A DNA stretch of 64,000 bases, taken from NCBI GenBank assembly GCA_033819885.1, contig JAQYUZ010000014.1, positions 186,001 through 250,000 of the forward strand. Reading direction: 5' to 3'. This DNA is from Microbotryomycetes sp. JL201 (lineage: Eukaryota; Basidiomycota; Microbotryomycetes). Positions within the stretch are counted from its first letter, which is position 1. The number at the start of each line of letters is the position of its first letter. The notes below the pieces were generated by a model that saw only the letters and a list, made by a program, of their open reading frames with translations, did no database searches and was not told the origin of the DNA. The translations under genes and the position numbers were made by a program. Positions 7,890-56,607 of the stretch are shown here, in pieces.

Positions 7890-10800
7890 ATGAGTGCAGG
7901 TGAGTACAGCAAGTCTATGGCCATCGGTTGAGGTGCATCTGGAAGCAGAATGCGCGCTTGCCGTGACCGCCTCCAAGCAGCGGACGCTCGAAGCTGCAAG
8001 CAGCGATGTCATCAAGGTCTGACGCGGCAACATGGTGTCGCAACATGCTCGCTGTTGCATTGATCCATGCTGCCGTGCACTTGATGCAGCTCGCTGACAC
8101 CTCGTTTCTTTGGCCTCGCTCGCGCTTGACGGCGTTCCCCGCACGCTGTTCGGTCTATGCAGACATACACGACAAAGCAGAATCCATCCGAAAAGCAGCG
8201 CAACATGCGTCTTCGTCCGACGCGCAAATCGCCTGGGACTCGCTCGCAGACGATGCTCGTCAAGTCGCAGACAACCTGACAACATGTGTGTGCGACGCCT
8301 TCCATGGAATGGAGCAACACAAAGTTGTCCGCTGATAACGTGCTCTAACGCCTCGCAGCCGACCTTCGCATCCAACTCGGCAAGACCGGCCTCGTCCAGG
8401 ATTGTGGCCACTTGCTCGCCACAGGCTCATCGAATGACTCGGTTCTGGACCCGGACACGCTGCAGAGCAAAACTCAATTATTGCGCGTCATCGGAAACAT
8501 GTGCTACGAGAATGGTTCGTCCGTCTCGGCCGGCAGTCTGGACCTCGCCGCCGCTGACGCTCTCCTACATGGATGTAATCAGACGATAACAGGCAGCAAG
8601 CTGACGAGGCCAAAGTGCCAGTCACCCTCGTGAAAGCGCTGCAAGCGCTGCTGTCGAGGACAGGTGAATGGACTTTGCCAGAGCTCAAATTCACAAGAGC
8701 AGCAGTGGGAGCGCTCCTGAACATGTCACTCGCTTACGGTGCGCGTCAAACACTCGTTATGCCACGTCCAAGAGAAACGGATGCTGACTGCTTGCTACGT
8801 AGACCCGATTCGAAACCAATTGTCGACCCCGGAAGCCATCGCGCTGTTGCTCGCTCTTGTCGACTCAAGACCTGCACAAAGCCGCAAACCCAGCGTGTAT
8901 GTTATCGGTTCATGGGTAAGCGGACCTTCAGCAGACCAGGACGAAGCAGAGTGGCGACAACGGATAGAGACTGGTGCATTGATCGCCACATGGGCCATGA
9001 CTATGTTGGAAGAATTGACAACCGACGGTGAGTCGACTGAGCGAGACGCGGACAATGAGAATCGCTACTGATATCTGAGTCGGACAGACAAAGCTAGTTT
9101 GGCAACGTCAGAGGGCGTCAAAGCTCTGGCATCTGTTATCGTCTCTTGCCAGGACGACTCGAATAGCCTTCCTTACAGCGGGTGGAATAATGAGGATGTA
9201 TCAGACCGCACCAGCGTCGATCTCGAACTGATTACGAATGCTTCGAGCCTGCTTGAAGCCGTCGCGATCGACCACGAACAAGCGAGACAGGCTCTCGGTT
9301 TGCGAGCACTGTCCGACGATGGAGGACTCATCTTGGCGCAACTCATGGATTTTGTCGAATCATCTAGTGTCCCACAGTACTGGTCTAAACGAGAAGGTGA
9401 CTCGAGCGGGCTCGAAAAGAGTTTCTCGCTCGTCAAATCTGCAGTTGTGCGAGCGATCGTCGAAGCACCGAATTCGGACGTCGTCATGAACAAACTGTTT
9501 GCTTTAGGCCACAAAAGCTGGCTCGTGATTCGACTTGTGAATTGGGTGCAAGAGGCTCAGCAAGGCAGAGAAGATTTGCTGATCTGCGCGTCGCACATGC
9601 TTGCCGCACTGGCAAGAAGAGGTACGTCCCGAGGTTCTGGCGGCCGAGTCGTGCACGCTGACCAAGTTCACGCGCTCTCGTACTCAGACGAACATTGTGT
9701 GTCGCTCGTGCATCAGTATGGCGTTGTCGAGCCCTTGTCACAAATCGTTCTCAGCAAGACGGCACAACAATTTGTCAAGCGTGATAGAAACGCAACGAAC
9801 CTGGGAGAGGTCACGCAGATTTTGTACGGCGTTGTCAGCCTGCTCAGGCACCTTGCAATTCCAGGCGAGTTGCTCAGTGGCCTGATTTTTTCCCGAAGTA
9901 GGCTGACACTCGTGTGGTTAGTGACAAACAAGATTATCCTGGGTGACAGTGGCATCATCGGTCCAGTATCATGCTTGCTGCGGAAAGAGCTAGACATGGT
10001 CGGACCGCTGCAAAACTCTGTTGTCGGGTTGCTCAAACATCTTAGCGCGGCAAATGGCAAGTTTTTTTTGGGGGGCAGTGTTTGTCCGCCGGATGCTGAC
10101 GCCTGGTTCACACCTTCAGTGGCAAACTCGCTTCGGATATTGGAAGCAGAATGCGCCCTTGGCGAACCCGTCTCGACACCGGTCGACCTCATCGTCTCGC
10201 TCATTTCACGGACAGATGACGTCAGACTAAGGTCAGAAGCGACCCGCGTGCTCGTCAATATTGTTCGAACCTTGTTTGCGACAAAACCTCTCGCTACAAC
10301 CGAGTTGGCCGCGGCTTCGCCCATCACGCCGACATTGACAGCTTCGGCTCAATCGAGTTTGAACGCAGAAGAGACGCTCAAGCGAAGAGGTCGACCGAAG
10401 ATTGTCAGACAAGATGTTGTCGAGGCGTTGAGTGAGATGGTCAGGTTGAGTGAAAAGTATCCGATGCTCATCAACGAGGCCATTGTGGGGTTGACGTTGC
10501 TGGCGGGCAGTGGAAGTGCAGGAGGTAAGCTGAGCCTGTCTCATAGTCGGTATCAAGGCTACGGCTGAGCGTATTGCTTTCTGCTTGCGTTTCAGCCATT
10601 TTTGTCCTCGATGCTCTGTTGAAAGAGCACGCCAAGCTCGAGCCGCTAGACCAGCAATCGTCGAACGGACAATCAGAACCTCTCACCGACTCGTCCAGAA
10701 ACCGAGCGAGGTCTTCCACACAAAGTTCGACCTCTCGTACCGCCTCACTGGCAATCAGTCCTGCCGGCGATCCACCTTGTTCGATCGAAATGATCTCAAA

Positions 10801-23040: not shown

Positions 23041-25317
23041 TCAAAACTCGGGAACAATCGGCAGAATGACCCGTGATGGATATTCGCTACCGATGTGGAT
23101 CTTGTGAGTACCAACGTTGAACTGAGCCCCTTGATTGAGAGCTCGTAGCTCAGGGTAGTTTGGGTTGGTGCCACCGATGTCGACACGTAGCGTCTCGCCT
23201 TCCTCCCAAAGCACGCCGCAGTGCCAGATGCCAATCTCCAACTCGACGACAGTTCCCGGCTCGACGAAATCGTCGTGCGAATGGGGATGGAACGGGAATT
23301 GAGGGTGGAACGTTCGCTCCCTATCGATCGCTCGGCGAGATGCTCGCAATGCTCCCATCGAGCCTTGGTAGATGACGACGCCGGCGTGATCTTCTGGAGG
23401 AATTTCGGCATACTTTTTGACCCATCGACGTTCGTACGGGACCTGAACATGCTTGAGCACGTTGCCTGGCGGGCGAAAGGTTAATCCAACAAGCTGCGAG
23501 GGAGGCAACGCAAAACGGCAGCTCACCTTGCCTGTCGAGCTTGCGTAACTCGACAAAGACGCCCATATCGTTGTGCTCGTCGCAAGACATGAACAAGTGA
23601 GCCTTGGGCAAGCCGACGATCTTGGTCTGCTTGTCAAAGGTGTACGAGAACGTTGCTTTGTCCACCCCGTCGGCAGAGTTGTAAGAGATGACTTGGCTCG
23701 TCTTTGGCTGCTCCAGCGACAGGGTTTCGTCGCCGCAAAGGAAGAATTCGTCGTACCGCGTGTTAGGTAGGGGCCAATCGGCCACAGGAATGTTCTCGAT
23801 CGGCTCCTCATCCCCCATCCGGAGTAAAGACATGCGGACCTTTGGCGTCGCGACGTCCCATCCGTTTTCGATGCCCTTGAGGAACTTGTCGAAGAAGCCG
23901 GCCAGATCCTCTGTTGAATCGAATTCGGGCGTCTTGTTGGCATACTAATCGGAAACAAAGGTGACAGTGAGAAAGCGGCGAGTCTCGTCAGCAGAGAGAG
24001 GCTTACCAAGTCGAACCACTCTTGCCACGCGCCCCATCGCAGCCATTTCTGCGACGATTGGATGCCGAGCCAGGCGTGAAGTGTGCCCATAGTGTGCAAC
24101 GATGTCACATCTGACCCAACGAGGTAGGTCGGACACTTGATTTTGGTCATGTCGACGCGCTTGTCTTGCCAGAATGGATGCGTCGCGTACGGATATTGCT
24201 TAAAGCATTCTTCGAAATCTTCAATCTCGCTGAATCCACGGATGATTATCGAGGAGATCAGCTTAAAGTTCGAGATGGTGAACATGCCTCCGCGACAGAA
24301 TTGATCGCGATACAAGTCGCTGAGGCCCTCCCAAGGTGCAACTGCGAGATAGCGAGGTTAGCACTGTCTCCGCATCGCACTAGGTCAGCTCACTGGCAGC
24401 AAGTGAGGGTGGGTTGAGAGAAGCGATCCAGTATTGCGATATTGCTAGAGCAGAGTTGCCTGCCATGCCGACCTTGCCATTGCAGTACGGTCGCTTTGCC
24501 AGAAATTCAATGACGTCGTACCCGTCTTGGGCCGTCTTGAGACCCATCAGCTCAACATTGCCTGTGCAGGATGTTAGAGCTTGCTGCTGTAAGGCGACAT
24601 CATCCCACAGGGAGCTCACCCTCTGAGTGGCCAGCGCCGCGCTCGTCAATTGAAGCGATTGCGTAGCCCTTGGGGCACCAGACAGCGGGATCTGTACGGA
24701 TTCTTCAGCTTTATGCATGCAAGCAAACTATGACCGCTGCCCACCGAGGCCTTCGAATTTCTCTGCGACGCAATTTTGCGTCAGCGCGCTGTTGTCCCGT
24801 CAGTCATTTGCACCTCATGTGACGCTCACCAAAACCGCTGCAATCACTCGGCACGATTCCACACTTCCACTTGGTGACAGGCAGCATATTGATCGCCGAG
24901 TCTGAAGATTGCAGTAATCAGTATCAGCCACGCGTCTTCGTGCAAATACCTCGTTTGCATACACTTCTTGCCGTCTGCACCATCATGATATTAGCTTGCG
25001 AGCGCCTAGACAAGCGATAGAAGCAGGTGCTTACAAGGAGACCATCCCACAACAAACGGTACCTTCTCGCCCTCTTTCAAATCGGCTGGGTAGTATAGAT
25101 CGGCGTACAGCTTGGTGCCATCGCGCACAACGATTTCAACATCGTGCTCGAGCATGATGTCGCTCTTGAGCGGCATGCAATCCAAGTCATCCCACCCTTT
25201 GCGAGTTGTGCCCGCCGTCAAGCGCTCGACTTTGCCTGGAAAGAAGCCCGTGTACCCATTGTGTCCTATGACGGGTGGATTCAGTGGCTTTGTCGGAACG
25301 TGGAAGGGCTTCGTCAT
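23041..25317 (-). CDS. CocE/NonD-type (Xaa-Pro dipeptidyl-peptidase-like) hydrolase, copy 1
   Basis: A 600-residue serine hydrolase of the CocE/NonD group, an alpha/beta hydrolase followed by a PepX_C jelly roll; known members cleave acyl esters and amides. Nine exons on the minus strand: 25317-25035, 24974-24963, 24901-24830, 24762-24745, 24691-24620, 24561-24394, 24341-24007, 23944-23527 and 23465-23041; all phases close. Segments shared with the two other copies are DIMLEHDVEIVVRDGTKLYA, VVGWSPYGKKYSAINMLP, EKFEGLDPAVWCPKGYAIAS, RGAGHSEG and the nucleophile elbow VGMAGNSALAISQYW. The C-terminal domain has GTVVELEIGIW and SEYPSRVILPIVPEF. It includes a 12-base and an 18-base exon. No signal peptide is seen, so it is probably intracellular. 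Divergent from the dioxygenase gene at 25788. The most diverged of the three copies. Confidence 0.87.
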
Positions 25318-42591: not shown

Positions 42592-45500
42592 ATGCAATAT
42601 TCATTAGGGCTGAATATTTTGGGCAGCGGCATGGACGACATTGACCCGACGTTACTGTTACTCGGCATGCCGCCAGTCAGCGAACGCGTGCTCGTTCGAG
42701 TTTATCGACCCATCCGGACCGTGATCTCGTTAAACAACACAGAGTTATTGCAGGTTTGTAGTCTATGTCATTGGTCAGACCGTCGCTGAGCGAGCTCATG
42801 TCGTTGTTCAGCTAGTGGAAGCCATGTCCAGACCAGACGGGAACGGCGGCGGCGCGTCCGGAGAACTCGAAGTGGTGCAGAACGGGAACCAGACTTCGCA
42901 CCAGCTATCAGGACGGCAATGGGTCTCTGATCGAGTTCTGCTACTGGTGAGTGAACTCCACACGATGCCCCTTCGTGTTTTGCTCAATCGCGTCCGAATC
43001 CCAGCTTCAAGTGTTTCAGCTCGAACAAGAGCTGGAACAGTTGAAATCGCAAAATCAGCCCTTACAGCAGCAGATTCTGTCTCCACAGGTGCAACAGCCA
43101 GCTGAATACGTGATGCCAGATCTTGCCATATCAGAGCCGTCACAGCAACCACAATTCCCACCAAATTCAGCTGGCGGCTCGTCGACAGACCTGCAGTCGT
43201 CCAGTGCCTCAGCTGATGGATCATCATCACCACCCACGTCAACGATCGAAACCATTGATCCTTCTTCACGCAAGCGACAGCGGTCATCGGCCTCCTCCAG
43301 TCAGCCCGAATCCTGCGCCAGACAGCCCAAGTCCAATCGATCCCTTCCTCTCTTGTCGCTGGGTGACAAGCCTGAATCTGACAGTGTCAAAGAGGGTGCG
43401 TCTCTATGCGAGATTCTCGCAAACTCCCCGGGAAATGCTGTTGACAAGTTTCATAATCTTACAGCGTACAATTTGATTAAGAAAGCTCCGCTCAATGGGC
43501 CCGGGCTGTTGCTGGACAAGGCGACCGCCAGGATGAAGCTCAACGGTCTTCCCCGCTGGGATGAACTCAAGAAGGAGTGTCTCCGCGTCGGAGGAACGCA
43601 ACTGCCAGCATTGGAGCAAGGGGAACTGCTTACTGAAGCGCTGCACAAGTTCTCATTCGTGTTCTACGTCGTATCTGAAGGTGTTCGGGTCAAGAACCGG
43701 CAGAAACTAAAAGGATCTGCTGACTCTGTGGCGAACGTACAAAAAAACGAAAAAGGTATTCTCCGCTACCCGGTCTGGATACTGCAAAAGTGGAAATGGA
43801 CGGGCAAAAACAGCAATGGATCTTTTGATCCTTTCATTTCCTTGAGCGTCGACCGTGGCATGATGTACAGGCCCAAGAAGAAAACTGCCCCCAGCTCGAA
43901 TACCCAAGATAGGGAAGCCTTGAAATTGGAACTCTGGGGCTCAAAGCCTTCAGAGAAGCTGTGAGCGGGGCGAGCTATGAAAGTCATGCTTTATTATGAC
44001 GCTAAGGCTGTTTGCCGCAGGATGCTGTTGTCGATACTTTGTTATGAAGGGAAATCGCTCGGTCCGGAGCTGGATCAGCTCGATCCGCGGATCCCCAACC
44101 AAAGCGTATTCGCTCACTTCCTCGAGCTGCCCGGCAAGGCGGCCAGCAAAGGCAAACGCAAGGTTAAAGGCAAACGCAAAAGCAAAAGCGACGACGAGGA
44201 CGAGGACGAGAGCGAGGGCGAGAGCGAGAATGGGAAGGAGCACGAGGAAGAGGGACAAAAAGGGAAAGAACAAAAGAGTGTCAGAGGAGAAAGTCAAGCT
44301 CAAGTCATCGGAGGTGGCAAATCGGTGCGTTCTGGTTGCGCGCCGGGAGGGCTAAAACGACTAGAATTAACAGACCCAATCCAGTCCGTTGGCGGAGACA
44401 TTGTGCTTGATGACATTTCTGCAGAACGAGTATCACAAGATCGAGACGACCAGCTCAGGGATAGTGCCCGACGCGCACAGGAAAGCACAAGCGATCTGAA
44501 AGAAAGTCCGGACAACGCAACATCAGACTGCGAGTCGCATATGTCCTCAGTGGCGTCTCAAGAATCCCTGTCAGACACCGGCACCGACGATGCTTTCGTG
44601 ATCGTGGCCACTTCGAGAGATGGCAACGAGGTGCACGATATCTCAGACCGTGCGATGGGCCATACGATCTGCCGACAAACACAACTCAGCCGTTCTTCAC
44701 CACAAGACGCTGATGTGGAATCATTGCGCAAGAAATTCGATGCGTTGGGTACCGATGGCGACGGTTATGAACAGCTCAGTACGATGATGGCTGGGAGCGA
44801 AACTGTACGAGCACTGTCCAGTGAGTTCTGACGCACGCCCCGTAAGATCTATGCCTTTCTGATGTCGAATTCTCATGTGCTAGATCGAACCGACGAGTTC
44901 AGACCGGCGCTTGACGCGGAGACATGTCTGACACCAGCTCATCATTGTCCGCAACTACCGGTAGCAGCGATTGGACATACACGCGATTTGTCGTTCAATT
45001 CTTTCTCCATTCCATCGTTCGATACGCCGTCTGATCAGTCGTCCGATCCCGGCAAGTGCTCATTCGGTCCCTCGTTGCGAAACCCAATTGCGAGTCATTT
45101 GACAATCCATCCAGCTTCAGACTCATCCGAGCTTCCGGCCTCATCCGAGCTCCCCGACGTAACCGAGAGAAAGGGTAATCAAGGGTTGAGCGACCTAAAA
45201 CGCATCAAACGTTACCAGCAGTCAGTGGCTGACATCAAGGAAGGTCTGGCGCCCGCGCTGCCGTGGACGAGGTCGCTATGGAACGGTTTTGCTCCCCTGC
45301 CAACCAAGCTACCCGCGATATTGTTGGCTGCGTACGAGCCTCTCGAGCTCATTGGCAGGGGCGGTTCCGGATTCGTACTCAGATGTGTGCGCCGCAAAGA
45401 CGGCCTCGAGTACGCCATCAAGCTCATCGACAAGCAACGGGTTTCTCGTGAAGGCCTGCAGCGATGCATGTGGGAGCAAGATGCCGTTGGTTTGGAGCAA

Positions 45501-46506
45501 TGGCCAGACGGGACGTCGTTTGTTCCGTACGAGGCGTACTTTTTGCGCAGGTCATCCCATGCTTCTGTCGTCCAGTTTGCCGACCTGTTCGCCGACAGCT
45601 CATATTTCTATCTTGTGATGGAGTACCACGGATCGCCGTGGAAAAAGGCCGAGAAGACTGTCGCGCAGTGCTCGAACCCGCAACAAACGCATTCTTCGTC
45701 TGAATTACTGCCAATCTTCCAACGCATGTCGTCAACCGATTTGTTCGAATTCATCGAGATGCACACCTGTTGCTCGGAAGAAACAGGGCGATTCATTTTC
45801 AACCAAGTGTTTCGTGTTGTGGCAGATTTGCGCCAGCGTGGAATTATATATCGCGGCATCACAGACCAACACATAACATGCGATCTGAATGGCATCGTAA
45901 GCAGCTTCTCTCTGGGCAAGCTAGACAACACACTCATCGCATATGTTCTTTCAGATCAAGCTCATTGACTTTAGGTCGGCTTTCGTGTTTAACCCGGTCT
46001 GTTCGCCGCCATGGTTTCCGGGCGAATACGCAAGAAGGTTTGCGTGGCAGTCAGGCTGGGTGCCCGCCGAGGCGTTATTGTTCCAACCATTCGGCCTGAT
46101 TGAGGCAGAGGTTAGCCAGCCCCTGTTTGGGCTGCTTCGTGGATTGAACTCATGATCTTTTCGCAGATTTGGTCTCTCGGCGTACTCTTACATAAGCTTT
46201 TGAGTGAGCTTACCACGTTCGTGCTCATTCGTCTGTTCTGACCGAGTTCTGTCTCGTGCAGCCGGTCAAAAACCTTTTGCAAGCGATGAAGATATCATCC
46301 GTGACCAGCGCATGCCTATTTCAGGTCGTGTCAAGCTGAGTAACGACGCGCAAAACTTGATCGACGGGTGTCTCGACGTGGATCCCGAAGACCGTTTTAC
46401 TCTGGAACAGATCGCCCGACATCCTTGGATGCAGACAAAAGCAGCAAGCTCGCTTGAGAAGACGCGAGAAATTGGCTCGGAAAATATCTGCTTAGTTGGC
46501 AGATGA
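42592..46506 (+). CDS. PAS-kinase-like pseudokinase
   Basis: A 1167-residue protein in eight exons: 42592-42753, 42812-42946, 43005-43960, 44021-44820, 44884-45896, 45955-46110, 46167-46203 and 46262-46506; every phase closes, tying the N-terminal frames to the kinase. The N-terminus has a short coiled coil (LQVFQLEQELEQLKSQ), Ser/Gln-rich sequence, an unassigned block (NLIKKAPLNGPGLLLDKA, YPVWILQKWKWTGKN), and a basic/acidic tract (KGKRKVKGKRKSKSDDEDED). The C-terminal domain (about 834-1150) resembles PAS kinases: IGRGGSGFV loop, YAIKLIDKQRV with the ATP lysine, YLVMEYHGSPW and DLFEFIEMH. Catalytic motifs are gone: HRDxKxxN is YRGITDQH, and DFG is DFR. IWSLGVLLHKLLTGQKPF and HPWM are normal. 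No PAS domain is recognised. Probably a scaffold or regulator rather than an enzyme. Confidence 0.72.
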
Positions 46507-47177: not shown

Positions 47178-48626
47178 ATGGATTGGATCGGAATCGGGAT
47201 CGAATACCAGTATGGTGGCCGCAATGGTGGTTACTCTGACGGCGGATATTGGAACTCTCCGCAAGGCAGAGAGGACCAAATGCGTGACAGCATAGAACGT
47301 GCTGAATCGCATCGCCGCCGAGCCGAAGAAAACAGACAGCATGACAATCAAAAGCAGCGAGATCAGGAAGAAAGACGTGCCCGAGAGAGAGCAGAAGACG
47401 CTCGTCGGAAGCAAGCAGAAGAGCAGGAACGTCAACGCAAATCTTCCGCGGCCGCAGAAGCTACACGTCGCGCAGCAGAAGAACGAGAGAGGGCTGAAAG
47501 GCTCCGCCAAGAGCAGGAGAGAGAACAGGAACGCTTGCGCGCTGAGGAGAACGAGCGCGCTGCATTGGGCAATCGATGTAAGTGAGATCGCCCGATCCTC
47601 TCTCTGACAGCAGCCCTGACGGCCGAGTCGCTTCATTCAGACCGCGCTGCCATCTCGGAGCAATCGTCTCGGATCGCGGCTGTCACTGAAAGCGAATTCA
47701 CCGATTACAAGCTTGAGCGCGAAAAGGCCTGCGGATTCGCTCATGTCCTCATCGAAGCTGCAAAGTATGCTACTCTCTCGGCAACGACGACGGCGCTCGA
47801 CCATTTGGGGACTGCACGTCAGCTCATCGACCTAGCTCTCGACTTCACGCCCGGCCTCTCGCTCGCAAAAGACATTGCATCCCTCGCGCGAATGCAAAAC
47901 GTCATCACGGGCGAAGCGCTGGGCGATGTCGAGGCCGGTCTGATGGCGGCGTGTATCTTAGTTCCTGGTGCCTTGAAAGGAGCGGCTGTTGGCACAGGTC
48001 AAGCTTTGCACGCCCTGCGAGCAGCTCAGGAAGGGGCGGGGATCGGAGCACACTTAGCAAAAGCGTTCGAGTACCCAGTCAATGAGGCGTGCAAATGGCT
48101 CGGACGCCTCGGAGACGGCACAGATGTCGTCAATTACGCTCCTGAAGCTACAAAGCGTCTCGCTCGGGCGCTCGAGTATACAGGAGACGTCGTCGAACGG
48201 TCATTCACCGCTGCTGAAAAGCGTGGATCTAAAGGGATTGCCACGATATCAAATGAATTGTTTGACTCTCCCGCCCTTGTTCGTGGAACCCATGCCAACG
48301 CCGGGCTCGTCCCCCTGGAAATTGGGCAGCGCCTTGAGGGTCGTCAATTCTCGTCGTTCGACGCATTTCGCAGGGCTTTCTGGACGGAGGTTGCCAACAG
48401 TAAGTATGCCCACGATCTAGGACCCCTCAGCTTGCACGACATGCAGAAAGGGCTCGCGCCTCTCGCACGAGAGGCACAGCATCACGGTGGCAGACGCACG
48501 TTCGAGTTGCACCACATGACGCCCATTCATGACGGAGGAAATGTGTACGATCTCTCTAACATTGCTATCGTCACGCCGAGGTACCACGTTGATGTTCTGG
48601 ACCGCGCATATCACTTTGCAAAGTAA
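47178..48626 (+). CDS. colicin E/S-pyocin-type HNH DNase domain protein (bacterial-type toxin architecture)
   Basis: A 461-residue gene that looks whole, in two exons (47178-47577 and 47641-48626; GTAAGT donor, TTCAG acceptor, phase 1). Parts in order: a short Gly/Tyr-rich start (MDWIGIGIEYQYGGRNGG); a long Arg/Glu coiled coil, residues about 35-132; a pre-toxin-like hydrophobic segment at about 195-245 (LALDFTPGLSLAKDIASLAR, then VITGEALGDVEAG), as found between trafficking and toxin domains of bacterial polymorphic toxins; and a C-terminal domain from about 355 with the colicin E2/E9 and S-pyocin signature: SSFDAFRRAFWTEV, QKGLAPLAREA, GGRRTFELHHMTPI, then VYDLSNIAIVTPRYHVDVLD. These bacteriocin domains cleave DNA. 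There is no signal peptide and no recognisable immunity gene. The intron and fungal neighbours show it resides in a eukaryotic genome; bacterial ancestry is inferred. Confidence 0.85.
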
Positions 48627-49657
48627 AGACCAAGAGTTGAATGATGCTCGTCTTCATAGTACGTGAATGGTTTCATAGTAGTATGTGAACTTTCCTGCGT
48701 TTGCTCTTATACTTATACTGTGAATTTTGTGTGCCAATTAAGTGCCTATGTCTATTCCACCGCTGATCAGGTCGCGGCGATCGTGTACCGTCAGTTCATC
48801 ACGCATTTGTTCCAGATTGACTGAGGGACGGAAAAAACAGCAACAGATGTGATGGCAACGCACATCTGAATGCGAAAGTGTGGTTGGAGGCGAGCGCAGG
48901 CCCGCCCGAGCTCATTGAAAAAGTGGAAGGTACGAATACTAGACTTTAAAGTAACGACTTTGGCATGACAGAGGACCCTTCTATACAGTGTCCAGCCATT
49001 GAGAAATTTGGCTCAATCACCAGACGATCCTTTGAGGGCTCAGCTTGAGTCTCTTCGCCAGCGTGAACACGGAGGCTGTCGTATATGTGACGGGACCGAT
49101 CAAGATGAGAACTTGAAAAGAATCCACTTCAAGTTGAGAACGTGAAGCGTGGCTCAAGTTTGGCTTCGCGAGCTACACAGTGCCCGTGCAGGTGAGCTTG
49201 ATGCGACCGTCTGACGGCAGAGGAGAACGAGGGCTTGCAGCAGATACACAAGCAGCAGCCAGCTGGTTTCCCGGACAATCACGACGCTGACGGCGATGGC
49301 GGACGAGCGCCCGTTCAACATTGACAGACACCCCAGGAATGCGCCGAGCTGAGGCTGGGACAGTTCCTTACGGTTTCAACGCGAGCGAGATGGATTCAAT
49401 ATGCCATGAATGCTCACGCGTCTCCGGCTGCACGCAGGCTGCCCGCTTGGACCGTTGCACCTGCTCTTCGGCGCGACACGTGTTCAAAGAATGAACTGCA
49501 ACACGAGTGAGATAGAACGAGCAGCCACACTGGCGCCAGAACTTTTGCAAGTTACAAGCCACAGAAAATTGTTGTCAAACATGTGAATACGACCTCGAGG
49601 TCGCGGCTACCCTCTGACTCAGAGGCAATACATCGCGCTGAAGCATCAGTTTCCCAC
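48627..49657. other. gene-poor region
   Basis: About one kilobase between the nuclease gene and dioxygenase copy 2. It contains AT-rich sequence near 48650-48740 with an imperfect duplication of TTTCATAGTA-like words, then mixed sequence. No supported gene and no immunity-like small ORF. Confidence 0.5.
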
Positions 49658-51017
49658 TTAAGCCACAGATTTGATGTAAGGGATACCGGTGAGTTTATAC
49701 GCTCGCTCCGATAGAGTCGGCTTTTGACGTGGTGCCCACTTGTTGAGCGGGTCCGGTTCGCCGTTTCGCATGGGCGTGACAATTTCCTTTTTGAACGGTT
49801 GAAGACCTGAAATGCACATATGTTGTTAGCACAGCCGACAGCACTTTGAGTTCGCAAGCAGATCTCACCCATTGGCCAGTGCGAGTGACCCTCTGAGTTT
49901 TCAAACATTTCCTTTTTACGCAACAGCTCCTCCTGCGTTGCGACTGACGCAGGCATGTAACATGTATACACGACGAAGCGCGGAGATGAACCTTCGGGCG
50001 AGACATTATAGTGAGGCAGGCGTGAATCCCCTGTCATTCGAAGCACGTCAGCGCTTGGATACCTAGAACTGCACAAAATCCGAGACGCACACAAAACAAG
50101 ATCGCCAGGACCGGCATTGACCTTGATCCATTCAAGCCCTTTCTCCTTGAACCACTGCAGCCCCTCGTCCTTGAACATGTAAACCTCGTTTGTCCATCGG
50201 AAAATTGGGTCCGGATCCTCGCCAAATGTTTGATGGTATTCCTCTGATACCTTGTGTCCGCCTCGCAGAACCTTGAGTCCGCCATCTTTGTCACCGCTGG
50301 GTGTCAGATTGACAAAGCCTTGCACGCAGCGGAACCCTGGCCGCTCAGGATCTTGATCCTGGTGAGCCCAGCTGCGAGTGGATCTTGAATTAGCACAGTC
50401 CAAGCCTCGTGATCGGCTTGACTACTTACGCCGTATTCTCTCCGATATCCTTGCGTCCTGGGAACGAAATGTTGATAGCATCAAAGGAGACGATGAGGTC
50501 CTCAGTCTGGTAAATTTTTTCGAAAGCGGCGATGACCCCAGGCTCGGACCGAACTTTCCACGTGAAGGACTCGTGGGATGTACCGTATCTGTAATTCGAG
50601 GTAAGTTTCGTAGCGCAAGTCTCGCTCGAGCTTGACTGACGCTGGCATCAGGCCCTTGGCCGACATGATCGGAAGGCATGCTTCTCGAATCGTTGAAGGG
50701 TCGTCTCTCTTGTATCCAAGGTTGCTGAGTGAAGCTGATGTCAACAAATGTCAAGGATTGCAGACACCTGATCGTAGCTGTAGCTCGGGCGCAAAACTCT
50801 GCAGGCGCTTGACGACTCAAACTTACAAACCCTCTAGCCACGACTGAACCTCATCGACGAGCGAAGCAGTTCGATCTCCTGGGATCGCGTTTTTGATGAC
50901 AGCGTAGCCATCACGCACAAGATCGTCGCGAAAGTCGTTGTACGTGGTCTTGCCAGACATGTCGACGCAGTCGAGGACCGGCGTTGACCGAACGATGACA
51001 GGAGGGGAAGCGGGCAT
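49658..51017 (-). CDS. phytanoyl-CoA dioxygenase (PhyH)-like oxygenase, copy 2
   Basis: A 341-residue paralogue of the gene at 25788. Six exons on the minus strand: 51017-50827, 50724-50641, 50588-50430, 50371-50091, 50030-49869 and 49806-49658. Exon lengths 84, 159, 281, 162 and 149 are identical to those of copy 3. Motifs: TTYNDFRDDLVRDGYAVIKN, LGYKRDDPSTIREACLPIMS, YGTSHESFTWKVRSEPGVIA, the iron-binding HQDQDPERPGFRCVQGFVN, then DSRLPHYNVSPEGSSPRFVV with the distal His and Arg. It ends LSERAYKLTGIPYIKSVA. No organelle-targeting peptide is evident. It is divergent from hydrolase copy 2 with 385 bases between start codons. Confidence 0.89.
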
Positions 51018-51402: not shown

Positions 51403-53915
51403 ATGACGACCGACTTTGAGATAGCCTACAAGCCCATCGAGTACGTAGCGAGTCTGACCTTGCCGAGCCAATGCCTGCCACAGCTGAACGGTTCGATTTC
51501 TCATGTGTGCTAGCCCACCAAAGGAAGGCGTCAACGGCTACGACGGCTTCAAGCCTGGTCAGCAAACTCTTCTTAAAAAGGGTTCGACTCGCGAGGGCTG
51601 GGACGGCGGCAGGACCGCTGCCCTCGAGAGCGACATTCTGCTCGACCATGACGTCGAGTTGGTCATGCGCGACGGCGCCAAGCTGTACGCCGATATCTAC
51701 CGTCCTCCTGGAGACGAGAAGGTGCCCTGTCTTTTGATGTGGTCGCCGTACGGTAAGACTGATACTTGTTTTGATTTTGATACTTGTCTACTCGGACGTC
51801 GATCTGATCTCTTGTATCTCGGAAATGTCCCTCAGGCAAGCGATACAGCTCAATTGACTTCCTCCCATGTGAGATTATTGCCCTGGCCCCAACGTCAAAG
51901 CACGAATTCTTAATGTTTCCGATTTCACGCAGTCTGCACGTGGCGCGTCGGCGTGAGAAACGAAGTGCGTCGAGTCAGCTTTCATGAAAGGTAGCGAACG
52001 CTAAATAGCTTCATTCGCAGGATCTCAGTGGATGGGGTCAGTTTTGGCTAAAGTGTGACCACGTTTGCGCGACTGATTCCCTTAATGCGCACCTTGGACA
52101 CTGCAAAACTTTCTTACAGAGAAATTTGAAGGCCTCGGTGAGCTATGAAGTTGCTCGTGCGCACCTGCATATTACAGACTAACTTCCTCTCGGAACGCGA
52201 CCAGACCCGCGCAAGTGGTGTCCTCGAGGGTACGCCATCGCCTCGATTGATATCCGTGGTGCCGGACACTCTGATGGTTTTGTTCAAATCATGGGCGAGA
52301 ACATGGGCGAGGACGGGTACGACGTGATTGAGGCTCTTGCCAAAATGCCCTGGTGCGACGGCAACGTGGCTATGGGAGGCAACTCTGTACGTTGCCAAAA
52401 TTGTGTCCTTGATCGCGATATTGATGATAAGCAACAGTTCCTAGCCATCGCGCAATGGCACATCGCTGCGCAACAACCGCCGTCACTCAAGTGCAGTACG
52501 TCCAGCTTGACGACTTTGAATTGCGCAGATCAGCTCAACTGACGATGTGAACGCGCAGTTGCACCGTTTGAGGGTTGCGGTGACTTGGCAAGGGAACAAT
52601 TCTGCCGAGGTGGCGTGTTTAACATTTCCAACATGGGTAAGTTATCTGGAACCTGTCCGGAATGTCGTCTCATGAGACACTTGATCACTTCAGATATGAC
52701 CAACAAGCTCATTATTAAGGGTCAGCGCGGAACAGAAGATTTTGCCGAGATGTACGACCGCCAGCCTTTGTCGTCGCCGTATTGGGAAGACAAGCGCGCC
52801 AAAATGGACAAGATCAAGGTACCGGCGTATATCACTGGATCCGATGTCTCATCGCTGCACACGATGGGCAACATTCGAGGCTTCTTGGAGATCGATGCTC
52901 CTACGTGGATTAGGTGGACTGGCATTCAGGTTCGGTCTTGAGCCCAGTGCTTTGGCAACAGCTGAATCTGATGATCCCCCAGGAATGGCCAGAGTTGTAC
53001 TGCGTCGAGCAGAACGACCGGGAACTTCGTCAATTTTACGATTACTATCTCAAGGGCATTCAGAACGGCTGGGAAAAAACACCAAAGGCACGTTCTGGGT
53101 CCGCCTGCCCAACGTAGTTTTATGAGACTGACAGAAATCCGACTGTGCAGATTCGATGGGCCCTGCTTCAGTACGGCGATCGCGACGCTATTGACAATAT
53201 TGAGCTCGATGCTTTTCCGCCTTCGCAAACGCAGTACAAGGATTTGTACTTTGACCACAATGGCAAGCTGTCCGACTCGAAACCGGAACAAGCTGGCACC
53301 GTTTCGTACCTGTCTCGGGGTGAAGGCGCCGGCGTTGTCACGTTTGATTACAAATTCGACAAGACGACGACGTTGCTTGGCATTCCAAAAGTCGAAGCGT
53401 TCATGTCATGCAAGGACCATGACGATTTCTACACTCATGTGACCCTGACCAAGTTGGATGAAAGTGGGAACGTCTTGTCACACCAAGTCGTTCCTCGCGA
53501 GCGCGCATGGGTCCCGAAGCAAGCACAAATCGAAGACAAGGATCGAACCTCGCTCTTGCTGTTCCGTGGGTCGATGGGAATCCTGCGCGCATCACAACGC
53601 AAGTACGATCCAGCGCGCAACGTATGCGGCATTAAGAACTGGCTCTTCCACCCTCACGATGCTGAAGAAAAGGTAACGCCTGGCGACATTGTCAAGCTTG
53701 ATATCGGCATCTGGTCGACTGGCATCGTGTTTTATCCGGGAGAATCCTTGCGAGTCGAGTTCGTTGGCGAAGGCTCGGTCAACCACGAATTGAGGCATTT
53801 CACAACCAAATGGCCTGCCGAGTCTACCCTGAATCACGGCACGCACAACATTTTCTTCGGTGGAGAATATCCCAGCAAGATCAATGTACCTTTTGTCGAA
53901 CTAGATCTCCAGTAG
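51403..53915 (+). CDS. CocE/NonD-type hydrolase, copy 2
   Basis: A 599-residue paralogue of the genes at 23041 and 54393. Twelve exons: 51403-51440, 51514-51752, 51836-51868, 51933-51964, 52021-52036, 52120-52137, 52205-52386, 52438-52495, 52559-52636, 52694-52929, 52983-53087 and 53151-53915; all phases close. Motifs: DILLDHDVELVMRDGAKLYA, MWSPYGKRYSSIDFLP, EKFEGLDPRKWCPRGYAIAS, IRGAGHSDGFVQIMGENMGE and the nucleophile region VAMGGNSFLAIAQWHIAAQQ, then the jelly-roll part with GDIVKLDIGIW and GEYPSKINVPFVEL. The penultimate intron starts GCACGT, a second GC-AG intron. Exons of 16 and 18 bases lie in the middle; the 18-base exon (EKFEGL) is shared with copy 1. Naive frames across this region look broken until these introns are removed. 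Confidence 0.87.
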
Positions 53916-54392: not shown

Positions 54393-56607
54393 ATGACGAC
54401 CGACTTTGAGATTGCTTACAAGCCTATCGAGTAAGTGTTGAATACGCATTAGGCACAAGCTCTCGAACCCCCCGAGGTTGGTTACTAACCTAGTCTCATT
54501 ACTTGTCCGTAGCCCGCCAAAGGAAGGCGTGAATGGCTACGATGGCTTCAAGCCTGGCCAGCAGACTCTCCTCAAAAAGGGTTCGACTCGCGAGGGCTGG
54601 GACGGCGGCAGGACCGCTGCCCTCGAGAGCGACATTCTGCTCGACCATGACGTCGAGTTGGTCATGCGCGACGGCGCCAAGCTGTACACCGATATCTACC
54701 GTCCTCCTGGAGACGAGAAGGTGCCATGCTTGGTCATGTGGTCGCCGTATGGTAAGCTCTTTCCGCTTCCGCTTCGGCTAAGCCGGACTAAATTAGATTC
54801 CGATGGCAGGCAAGCGATACAGCTCTATCGACATGCTTCCTGGTGAGAGAGCTTCATACCGACGTCTTCTACACAGCTGATTTTCTGCTTGGGGTCTGCG
54901 CAGTCACCACATGGAGGTGTGGCATCCAGAACCAGGACCTGAGCGGCTGGGAAAAGTTTGAGGGCCTTGACCCTCGCAAGTGGTGCCCTCGCGGATATGC
55001 TATCGCATCTGTCGACATCCGAGGTGCCGGTCACTCGGACGGCCAGGTACAAATCATGGGCGAGAACATGGGTGAGGACGGATACGACGTGATCGAGGCT
55101 CTCGCCAAGCTGCCATGGTGCGACGGCAAAGTAGCCATGGGTGGCAATTCGTTCCTCGCCATCTCACAGTGGCACATTGCTGCTCAGCAGCCTCCTTCTC
55201 TCAAGTGCAGTGAGTCAGATATAGCAGCTGTCTCCAGCACTTGTGACTTTGCTGACCAGGTTTGAATGTAGTTGCTCCGTTCGAAGGTTGCGGTGACTTG
55301 GCTCGCGAGCAGTTCTGCCGTGGTGGAGTCTTTGACATCTCCAACATGGGTCAGTTGTATTTCGCGCCCATCTCAAAGCGTTGTTGACGAGTTGCTTTCC
55401 AGACTTGATCAACAAACTCATCATCAAGGGCCAGCGCGGCACAGAGGATTTCGCCGAGATGTACGACCGCCAGCCTTTGTCGTCGCCGTACTGGGAAGAC
55501 AAGCGCGCCAAGATGGACAAGATCAAAGTCCCTGCATTCATCGCTGGCTCCGATTTCTCGTCCATCCACACCATGGGCAGCATCCGCGGTTTCTTGGAGA
55601 TCGACGCCCCAACTTGGATCAGGTGGTCAGGTGTCCAGGTAAGACCCTGCCGCTTTACACTCAAACTCAAGCGATTGACCATGCTTCCACAGGAATGGCA
55701 TGAGTTGTATGTCATCGAGCAGAACGACCGAGAGCTTCGACAATTTTACGACTACTACCTCAAGGGTATCCAAAACGGCTGGGAAAAGACACCCAGGGTG
55801 AGTGCTTACGTTACGTAGTGACCGAACGTCATTCTGACTGGCCGACTGCAGATTCGCTGGGCTCTCTTGCAATTCGGCGACCGCGATGCTCTCGAGAACA
55901 TCGAGCTTGACGCCTTCCCGCCAAAGCAGACTCAGTACAAAGACTTCTACCTCGACCACAACGGCAAGCTGTCCGAGACCAAGCCAGAAAAATCCGGCAG
56001 CGCATCGTACCTGTCGCGTGGCGAAGGCGCCGGCAATGTCTCGTTTGACGTCAAGTTTGACAAGAAGACAACATTGCTCGGCATTCCAAAGTGCGAGGTA
56101 TTCATGTCCTGCAAGGACCACGACGATTTTTACACGCACGTGACTCTCAAGAAGCTTGACGAGAACGGCAACATTTTGGCTCACCAGACGATCCCGCGCG
56201 AGCGCGGCTGGGCCAAGACTCAAGCCGAAATTGAGGAGAAGGACAGGACAGCGTTGCTCCTTCATCACGGCTCAATGGGTATTCTGCGTGCCTCGCATCG
56301 CAAGTACGACCCTTCGCGCAATGTTTGCGGCATCGAAAATTGGCTCTTCCATCCTCACGAGGACGAGGAGAAGGTCACTCCTGGCGAGATTGTCAAGCTC
56401 GACATCGGAATTTGGGCCGTTGGTGTTGTCTTCTACCCCGGAGAGTCTCTCCGTGTCGAATTCACGGGAACCGGCACGCGCAACCACGAGTTGCGACACT
56501 TTACTACAAAGTGGCCGGCAGAGAGCACCTGGAACCACGGCACGCACAATGTCTTTTTCGGCGGCGAGTACCCGAGTAAGGTCATTTTGCCTCTTGTCGA
56601 GCTTTGA
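54393..56607 (+). CDS. CocE/NonD-type hydrolase, copy 3
   Basis: A 596-residue paralogue directly downstream of copy 2. Eight exons: 54393-54430, 54513-54751, 54810-54842, 54904-55209, 55272-55349, 55403-55638, 55693-55797 and 55852-56607. The 306-base fourth exon equals the sum of five exons of copy 2 (32+16+18+182+58), so copy 3 lacks four introns. Protein segments nearly identical to copy 2 include GSTREGWDGGRTAALESDIL, QRGTEDFAEMYDRQPLSSPY and QNDRELRQFYDYYLKGIQNG; the nucleophile region is VAMGGNSFLAISQWHIAAQQ. The C-terminal PepX_C-like domain has GEIVKLDIGIWAVGVVFYPG and GEYPSKVILPLVEL. It is tail to tail with dioxygenase copy 3. Confidence 0.89.

Follow-up and report, generated by a model that had tools for sequence, protein, structure and literature searches.

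How does a eukaryote tolerate the warhead of a bacterial toxin when it carries two intact copies and no immunity protein (Im) can be found? Colicin DNases are textbook toxins, and a cell that makes one is understood to need a tightly binding Im partner in order to survive. The question is raised by OIV83_002900, a gene of the basidiomycete Microbotryomycetes sp. JL201 that NCBI labels as a hypothetical protein, and which already bears the PF21431 tag in the protein database. It lies in a stretch of 64,000 nucleotides, here called the window (G000:C6:186001-250000), from an assembly of 17.15 Mb. The original prediction saw in it a spliced gene joining a colicin-type DNase to bacterial pre-toxin architecture. 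The following sections consider the gene and its second copy, the descent of the DNase, and how the host might live with it.

Gene structure, domains, and fungal context

The window gene and its left neighbor are laid out as follows:

47178..48626, + strand: whole gene, two exons (OIV83_002900, 461 aa); the NCBI spliced protein, P0003, equals the window's exons
47178..47577, + strand: exon 1, N-terminus and charged helix, with a REDQM..SI.R motif common to the paralogue (translation, local alignment)
47268..47567, + strand: predicted long charged helix or coiled coil, residues 31-130 (composition only)
47578..47640, + strand: intron of 63 nt, phase 1, GTAAGT...TTCATTCAG (NCBI gene model; known from DNA and model)
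47641..48626, + strand: exon 2, with linker, PT-TG, and DNase (translation, Pfam, P0003)
47820..47987, + strand: PT-TG pre-toxin segment (PF14449), hydrophobic, with TG motif (Pfam)
48288..48596, + strand: Col-Pyo_DNase domain (PF21431), HNH fold
44832-45965 and 46204-46503 (the latter below cut-off): protein kinase, in two frames left of the gene (Pfam)

Across the splice junction P0003 reads GNR-Y-RAAI, which fits a GT at 47578 and an AG at 47639-47640, and the intron that had been predicted matches the NCBI gene model. When it is retained, the frame stops at the TGA in 47583-47585. Two nearer in-frame AG acceptors end at 47610 and 47613, and their use would lengthen exon 2 by 10 or 9 residues with the frame unbroken; the NCBI model picks 47640. 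No structured RNA was detected in the intron (z 0.16). The two exons were analyzed separately. The query used in the Pfam, PDB, protein-relative, second-copy, plasmid, and phage searches (P0002) starts at 47613 and holds ten residues more than the NCBI model, in which they are intronic.

The DNase motifs quoted in the original prediction are present in exon 2 where it had placed them, and the colicin-type assignment is borne out by PF21431, which scores 102.1 bits where 27 is the cut-off (E 3.1e-29) and aligns from 19 to 122 of its 124 positions, and by PDB sequence matches to colicins E9, E2, and E7 and to pyocins, from E 1.1e-21. The LHH and HNH profiles of Pfam match exon 2 below their cut-offs, and structural alignment of the predicted structure finds the HNH fold of colicin DNases in the window DNase. 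The pre-toxin-like segment in front of it is supported as PT-TG by a six-frame genome search (24.8 bits) and by the paralogue, where it lies over the cut-off (33.1 bits by Pfam scan, 34.1 bits by genome search), but it is borderline in the window protein, with 21.8 bits in the Pfam scan against a cut-off of 23.5. In both fungal genes the toxin domain is C-terminal behind the pre-toxin domain, which is the polymorphic-toxin order.

Upstream, exon 1 has no believable family match in Pfam at E up to 10, and no Pfam match to a trafficking leader (LXG, WXG, Rhs, TPS, PAAR). Neither exon matches a receptor-binding or translocation domain in Pfam at E up to 10. Over the 100 residues from 31 to 130, E, K, R, Q, A, and D make up 85% of the composition with no Pro or Gly, as expected for a long charged helix or coiled coil. 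The coiled coil of the original prediction thus fits the composition, but it is no conserved part, because the paralogue lacks such a stretch. The paralogue's N-terminus is more hydrophobic: the best 15-residue mean within the first 60 residues is +1.64 (at residue 22), versus -0.31 for the window protein, which by hydropathy has no signal-peptide-like hydrophobic N-terminus.

The second copy is found on another contig, and genome searches returned no third:

G000:C1:7826-9214, - strand: paralogue (L006), on contig C1 of 876 kb (coordinates derived by hand)
C1 9214 (or the second ATG at 9142) to 8872, - strand: exon 1
C1 8871-8815, - strand: intron of 57 nt, phase 1
C1 8814-7826, - strand: exon 2

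Here too, an unspliced intron would close the frame ahead of the DNase, which scores 104.4 bits for PF21431. Across 315 aligned positions, the proteins encoded by the two second exons share 43% of their residues, and both reading frames are free of stops. The copies differ at 45% of first, 39% of second, and 68% of third codon positions, and where a fourfold site encodes an unchanged amino acid, it has changed in 44 of 55 cases. With silent sites close to saturation and the proteins maintained free of stops, long purifying selection is suggested, and both copies are apparently old and kept by it. The REDQM..SI.R motif of the first exons aligns with a local score of 65, a value not reached in 500 shuffles (highest 57). 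Both introns are in phase 1 at similar places and the alignment just behind them is weak, making a common intron position likely rather than proven. The paralogue is absent from the proteins returned by the protein searches, and has possibly been missed in public annotation. The first 2 kb of C1 contain no TTAGGG or CCCTAA that would indicate a telomere.

Around the two loci, 13 of the 20 flanking frames have a Pfam match at E up to 0.001; the seven that do not include the right neighbor of the window gene (49555-50421). Beyond the kinase, farther left, come a fungal transcription-factor domain and a Zn2-Cys6 cluster, and the contig of the paralogue carries eIF5B-like pieces, RPB2, and CWC25. 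The window also contains three frames with the X-Pro dipeptidyl-peptidase C-terminal domain PepX_C (23044-24357 on the - strand; 53118-53912 and 55822-56604 on the + strand), which form a small local family. The third-codon GC of exon 2 and of the kinase frame is 0.59; that of the paralogue is 0.58, of the right neighbor 0.53, and of exon 1 0.47. Two further proteins, P0004 and P0005, with 71% and 74% identity to the window protein, come from other contigs and are counted as fungal on identity alone. An error of assembly, or bacterial contamination fused to fungal DNA, is highly improbable and was rejected: the analysis is made from DNA sequence alone and exon 1 falls below exon 2 and the neighbors in third-codon GC, but against this stand introns in both copies, two intact loci among eukaryotic genes on contigs of 357 and 876 kb, an exon 2 that resembles its two neighbors in third-codon GC, and the relatives at 71-74% identity. 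The fungal surroundings and the intact look of the gene are as the original prediction described them.

Active site and bacterial descent

The catalytic residues can be placed on the gene by alignment:

48222..48224, + strand: Arg codon aligned to colicin E9 R5 / E7 R447; Arg in 18 of 18 aligned rows
48510..48515, + strand: His-His of the HNH core (E9 H102/H103; E7 H544/H545), kept in 18 of 18 rows
48585..48587, + strand: second metal His (E9 H127; E7 H569), kept in 18 of 18 rows
48612..48614, + strand: His at +9 after the second metal His, a possible stand-in for E9 H131 / E7 H573 (at +4)

For E9 we take the numbers to be R5, R96, E100, N118, H127, and H131. In the alignment R5, G9, R96, E100, H102, H103, N118, and H127 are identical in the window protein, the paralogue, P0004, and P0005. 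The R96 and E100 of the fungal DNases are the same as in the pyocin-type rows and P0006, and the Bacillota and Streptomyces rows differ there; at these two positions the aligned fungal proteins appear more like classic DNases than their tree neighbors are.

According to a passage of PMC10386286, H544, H569, and H573 of colicin E7 bind the metal, H545 activates water, and R447 promotes catalysis. In the fungal sequences the place of H573 (E9 H131) is taken by Leu. When His is counted over 83 domains, 53 have it at +4, 19 at +9 without +4, and two at neither place, nine being unparsed; none of the 74 parsed domains has both. The 19 rows with +9 are the four fungal ones, three further proteins, and 12 locus rows, near-duplicates included. 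Within the +9 clade of the tree (see below), all 16 rows have both the Leu at +4 and the His at +9. The split between +4 and +9 follows one tree branch and is therefore taken as one event, and since the bacterial members of the +9 clade also have no +4 His, this residue does not define the DNase family. The +9 His may substitute for the third metal ligand. In its favor, a DNase-only model (mean pLDDT 88) has the helix broken between +4 and +9. Against it, structural alignments put E7 H573 at model residue 143 or 144 and not at the His, which is residue 148, and in the first model the helix is continuous through this region.

A scan of one genome per GTDB species gives 64 bacterial loci, and ten viral contigs have a DNase match, of which four (L072-L075) are in the +9 clade. 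The nearest DNase relatives are Rhs or LXG/WXG toxins, mostly from Bacillota. By tblastn the identities are 52% for Defluviitalea, 48% for Lachnospiraceae, 45% for Paenibacillus, 44% for Oceanirhabdus, 44% for Streptomyces, and 41% for Bacillus velezensis, with 42-45% for LXG-type toxins on viral contigs. By Pfam, L011 has RHS, both L014 and L072 have LXG, and L016 has a T7SS signal; on our own reading of the proteins, L008, L009, and L016 would also carry Rhs and L075 LXG. Among sampled Bacillota, the DNase family occurs in one of 398 genomes in each of two overlapping draws, both times the center genome itself.

In a tree of 82 DNase domains, from which L071 was excluded on account of a stop inside its match, the four fungal rows and 12 other +9 rows form a 16-row clade (support 97/97), and 61 other rows, Pseudomonadota where named, are set apart (100/99). 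With the fungal rows nested in this bacterial clade, the transfer from bacteria proposed in the original prediction is well supported. The kinship that it drew to colicins E2/E9 and S-pyocins holds for the family, but the closest kin are the Rhs/LXG polymorphic toxins. The four fungal rows group together in the 82-domain tree (support 73/90, 68% of bootstrap trees), and in a 27-row tree they form no clade, while forcing them together is not rejected (p-AU 0.53); the DNase tree does not firmly establish that the four fungal rows go back to one origin. The introns, the N-terminal motif, and PT-TG favor one transfer and a later duplication, which the DNase tree alone does not. Further fungal relatives may exist, because the protein searches with P0002 and one other query scored only the ~8000 candidates that share most words.

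The DNase stands behind PT-TG as in the bacteriocin and polymorphic-toxin order that had been claimed, but the Pfam scan finds PT-TG in none of the eight non-fungal +9-clade proteins for which it covers the DNase (five locus proteins, three others), so that the exact order is unseen in bacteria here. As a bacterial donor of the PT-TG part, nothing was returned: among 7326 candidates, residues 135-350 of P0003 matched only P0003, P0004, and P0005 at E up to 1.

Three other sources were considered and rejected. A classic colicin or pyocin origin has the tree and the His pattern against it, although R96 and E100 are colicin-like. For a phage origin, there is no tblastn match among 50,697 phage records. 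For a plasmid, 747 records match, none of them across more than 80% of the query, and the 15 matches listed are colicins from Salmonella and S-type pyocins from Vibrio.

Several arrangements among the relatives are recorded here for their own sake. An Oligoflexia MAG encodes a short +9-type DNase protein of ~200 aa (L012:4797-5444) with an N-terminus that looks signal-peptide-like by eye. In Lachnospiraceae, a second DNase copy with two TGA inside the match lies ~1.7 kb behind the Rhs toxin (L092, G004:C6:121935-122246), and is an orphan cassette by its listing. P0007 and P0008, each on a contig of 916,683, have near-identical middles and different DNase ends, which looks like tandem toxin cassette exchange.

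Immunity search and possible function

At nine of ten bacterial or viral-contig loci (L013 and L014 being near-identical), an Im-like frame of 67-74 residues starts within ~30 bases behind the toxin; behind the L012 DNase there is none in the remaining 679 bases. When five of the Im-like proteins are compared with PF01320, three pass the cut-off, one falls below it, and one has no match. In the fungal genome, the six-frame search with PF01320 finds nothing at E up to 10, a search with one Im-like protein gives a best E of 0.40 at 25% identity, which is chance level, and an unfiltered Im profile run, which took in the window and the 20 kb at the start of C1, finds nothing better than E 1.5. The remark in the original prediction that no immunity-like gene is visible nearby can now be extended to the whole genome, as far as six-frame PF01320 and one Im-like protein can tell. 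The search is soft, because PF01320 misses one of the five Im-like proteins and scores another below the cut-off, and an Im split by an intron, a divergent Im, or an unrelated inhibitor could be missed. The genome has a single match to SMI1/KNR4 (SUKH, PF09346), L085 (G000:C6:294885-295352, 27.8 bits), which is on the same contig ~60 kb past the DNase gene and so not adjacent. Knr4/Smi1 is a general fungal protein, and L085 is probably an ordinary fungal Knr4. A 2012 survey names SUKH proteins among the bacterial immunity partners of Tox-ColE7 (PMC3482391).

With no export leader and no Im found, the protein is most simply read as a nuclease that stays latent inside the cell. Our best explanation, which we hold tentatively, is that the two genes encode a family of such nucleases kept by selection as a cell-autonomous weapon. 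A polymorphic-toxin DNase of the Tox-ColE7 kind would have entered the basidiomycete lineage from bacteria, gained an intron, and duplicated, with selection keeping a two-gene family. Each protein would be an intracellular nuclease whose C-terminal HNH domain, with a single divalent metal, cuts DNA non-specifically. Until some trigger released it, the nuclease would be held off chromatin by its N-terminal part and the hydrophobic PT-TG, which might tether it to a membrane, build it into an oligomer, or keep it folded shut. The use might be self-destruction upon infection or non-self contact, or the destruction of invading DNA, on the model of the animal CIDE nuclease (CAD/DFF40) or of fungal Het-C. 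Because the retained intron ends the frame before the DNase in both genes, splicing would gate toxin production. Activity, location, latency, trigger, and target are what we infer rather than observe; the N-terminal part of the model is of low confidence, with pLDDT for the most part below 50, and lends the proposed latency no structural support. Also against this explanation are the third metal ligand missing from +4, through which activity could be reduced or lost, the charged helix of the window protein that has no counterpart in the paralogue, and the softness of the Im search together with the SUKH gene. A role in cell death, allorecognition, or defense may be suggested by analogy, and the present role in killing or self/non-self conflict of the original prediction is likewise conjectural. 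We are more doubtful of the stronger form of this explanation, according to which the first eukaryotic colicin-type DNase is seen here, an Rhs/LXG warhead turned into an endogenous, splice-dependent, DNA-cutting effector without Im that would be restrained by PT-TG and the N-terminal parts and freed for cell suicide or allorecognition.

The protein might instead be released by unconventional secretion, vesicles, or lysis and act as a weapon against bacteria or competing yeasts, while being kept from the cell's own nucleus. This would agree with the known use of the domain in killing neighbors, as given in PMC4548480 and PMC3482391, and with the conservation of the core residues. But the window protein's N-terminus is not signal-peptide-like by hydropathy, Pfam shows no leader, receptor-binding domain, or translocation domain, and no immunity gene was found, and we consider such an exported weapon unlikely.

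Peaceful domestication, either as a nuclease serving the repair, recycling, or uptake of DNA or as a non-catalytic fold that binds DNA or protein, has a similarly small chance. It draws on the absence of the +4 metal His from all four sequences counted as fungal, and in the 2012 survey the GHH toxin domain of teneurin is described as having become a non-catalytic signal (PMC3482391). But the other core residues are kept between copies only 43% identical, and the loss of the +4 His is no argument for a dead enzyme, because bacterial toxins beside Im-sized genes carry the same change, which is thus no mark of lost function.

Finally, the locus could be a selfish toxin-antidote element that kills cells or spores without the gene, the antidote being a non-Im protein or a product of the same gene. 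The unspliced transcript would give the N-terminal part only, so that splicing decides on the toxin in both genes, and no separate Im was found; the presence of two diverged copies on different contigs nevertheless makes this quite improbable.

Comparison with known systems

Compared with colicins E2/E7/E9 and pyocins S2/AP41 (Tox-ColE7, PF21431), the fungal genes have an intron and reside in a fungal genome. Their protein has no receptor-binding or translocation domain that could be found by Pfam and no Im that could be found, its third metal His is not at +4, and, unlike in colicin and S-pyocin bacteriocins, no adjacent Im gene was found at the fungal loci. The nearest DNase kin are the Bacillota and Actinomycetota +9 toxins (L008-L011, L014, L016, L072, L075), with 41-52% identity by tblastn, which share Leu at +4 and His at +9 with the fungal DNases. 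Unlike the fungal proteins, those scanned carry RHS (L011), LXG (L014, L072), or in L016 a T7SS signal, and are directly followed by an Im-sized gene. R96 and E100 are kept in the fungal DNases and not in the +9 bacterial rows. A C-terminal DNase match is also seen to the VPA1263 T6SS effector (NF047924), with 75.4 bits for the window protein and 67.8-76.3 bits for the paralogue, P0004, and P0005; it takes in only the last ~125 of 711 positions, far under the cut-off of 900, and the fungal protein has no T6SS part.

In open-licence PMC, no fungal case was found among the titles and abstract openings listed, nor any paper on the strain or the Pfam accession. The domain family is already known, and so is the route of toxin domains into fungi; what was not seen in print there is the combination, a eukaryotic colicin-type DNase that is spliced and duplicated and has PT-TG, with neither leader nor Im. 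In Table 2 of PMC3482391, the Tox-ColE7 row names bacteria only. This 2012 survey counts at least 13 toxin domains in fungi, and derives the CIDE nuclease and Het-C from toxin domains (PMC3482391). Het-C, the other fungal toxin domains, and the animal CIDE nuclease have different domains from the one described here, and they share the same route, from a bacterial toxin domain to a eukaryotic cell-death or conflict system (PMC3482391). The fungal DNases would lengthen the list of toxin domains known in fungi, and they offer a testable case for bacterial toxins becoming eukaryotic cell-death or defense enzymes.
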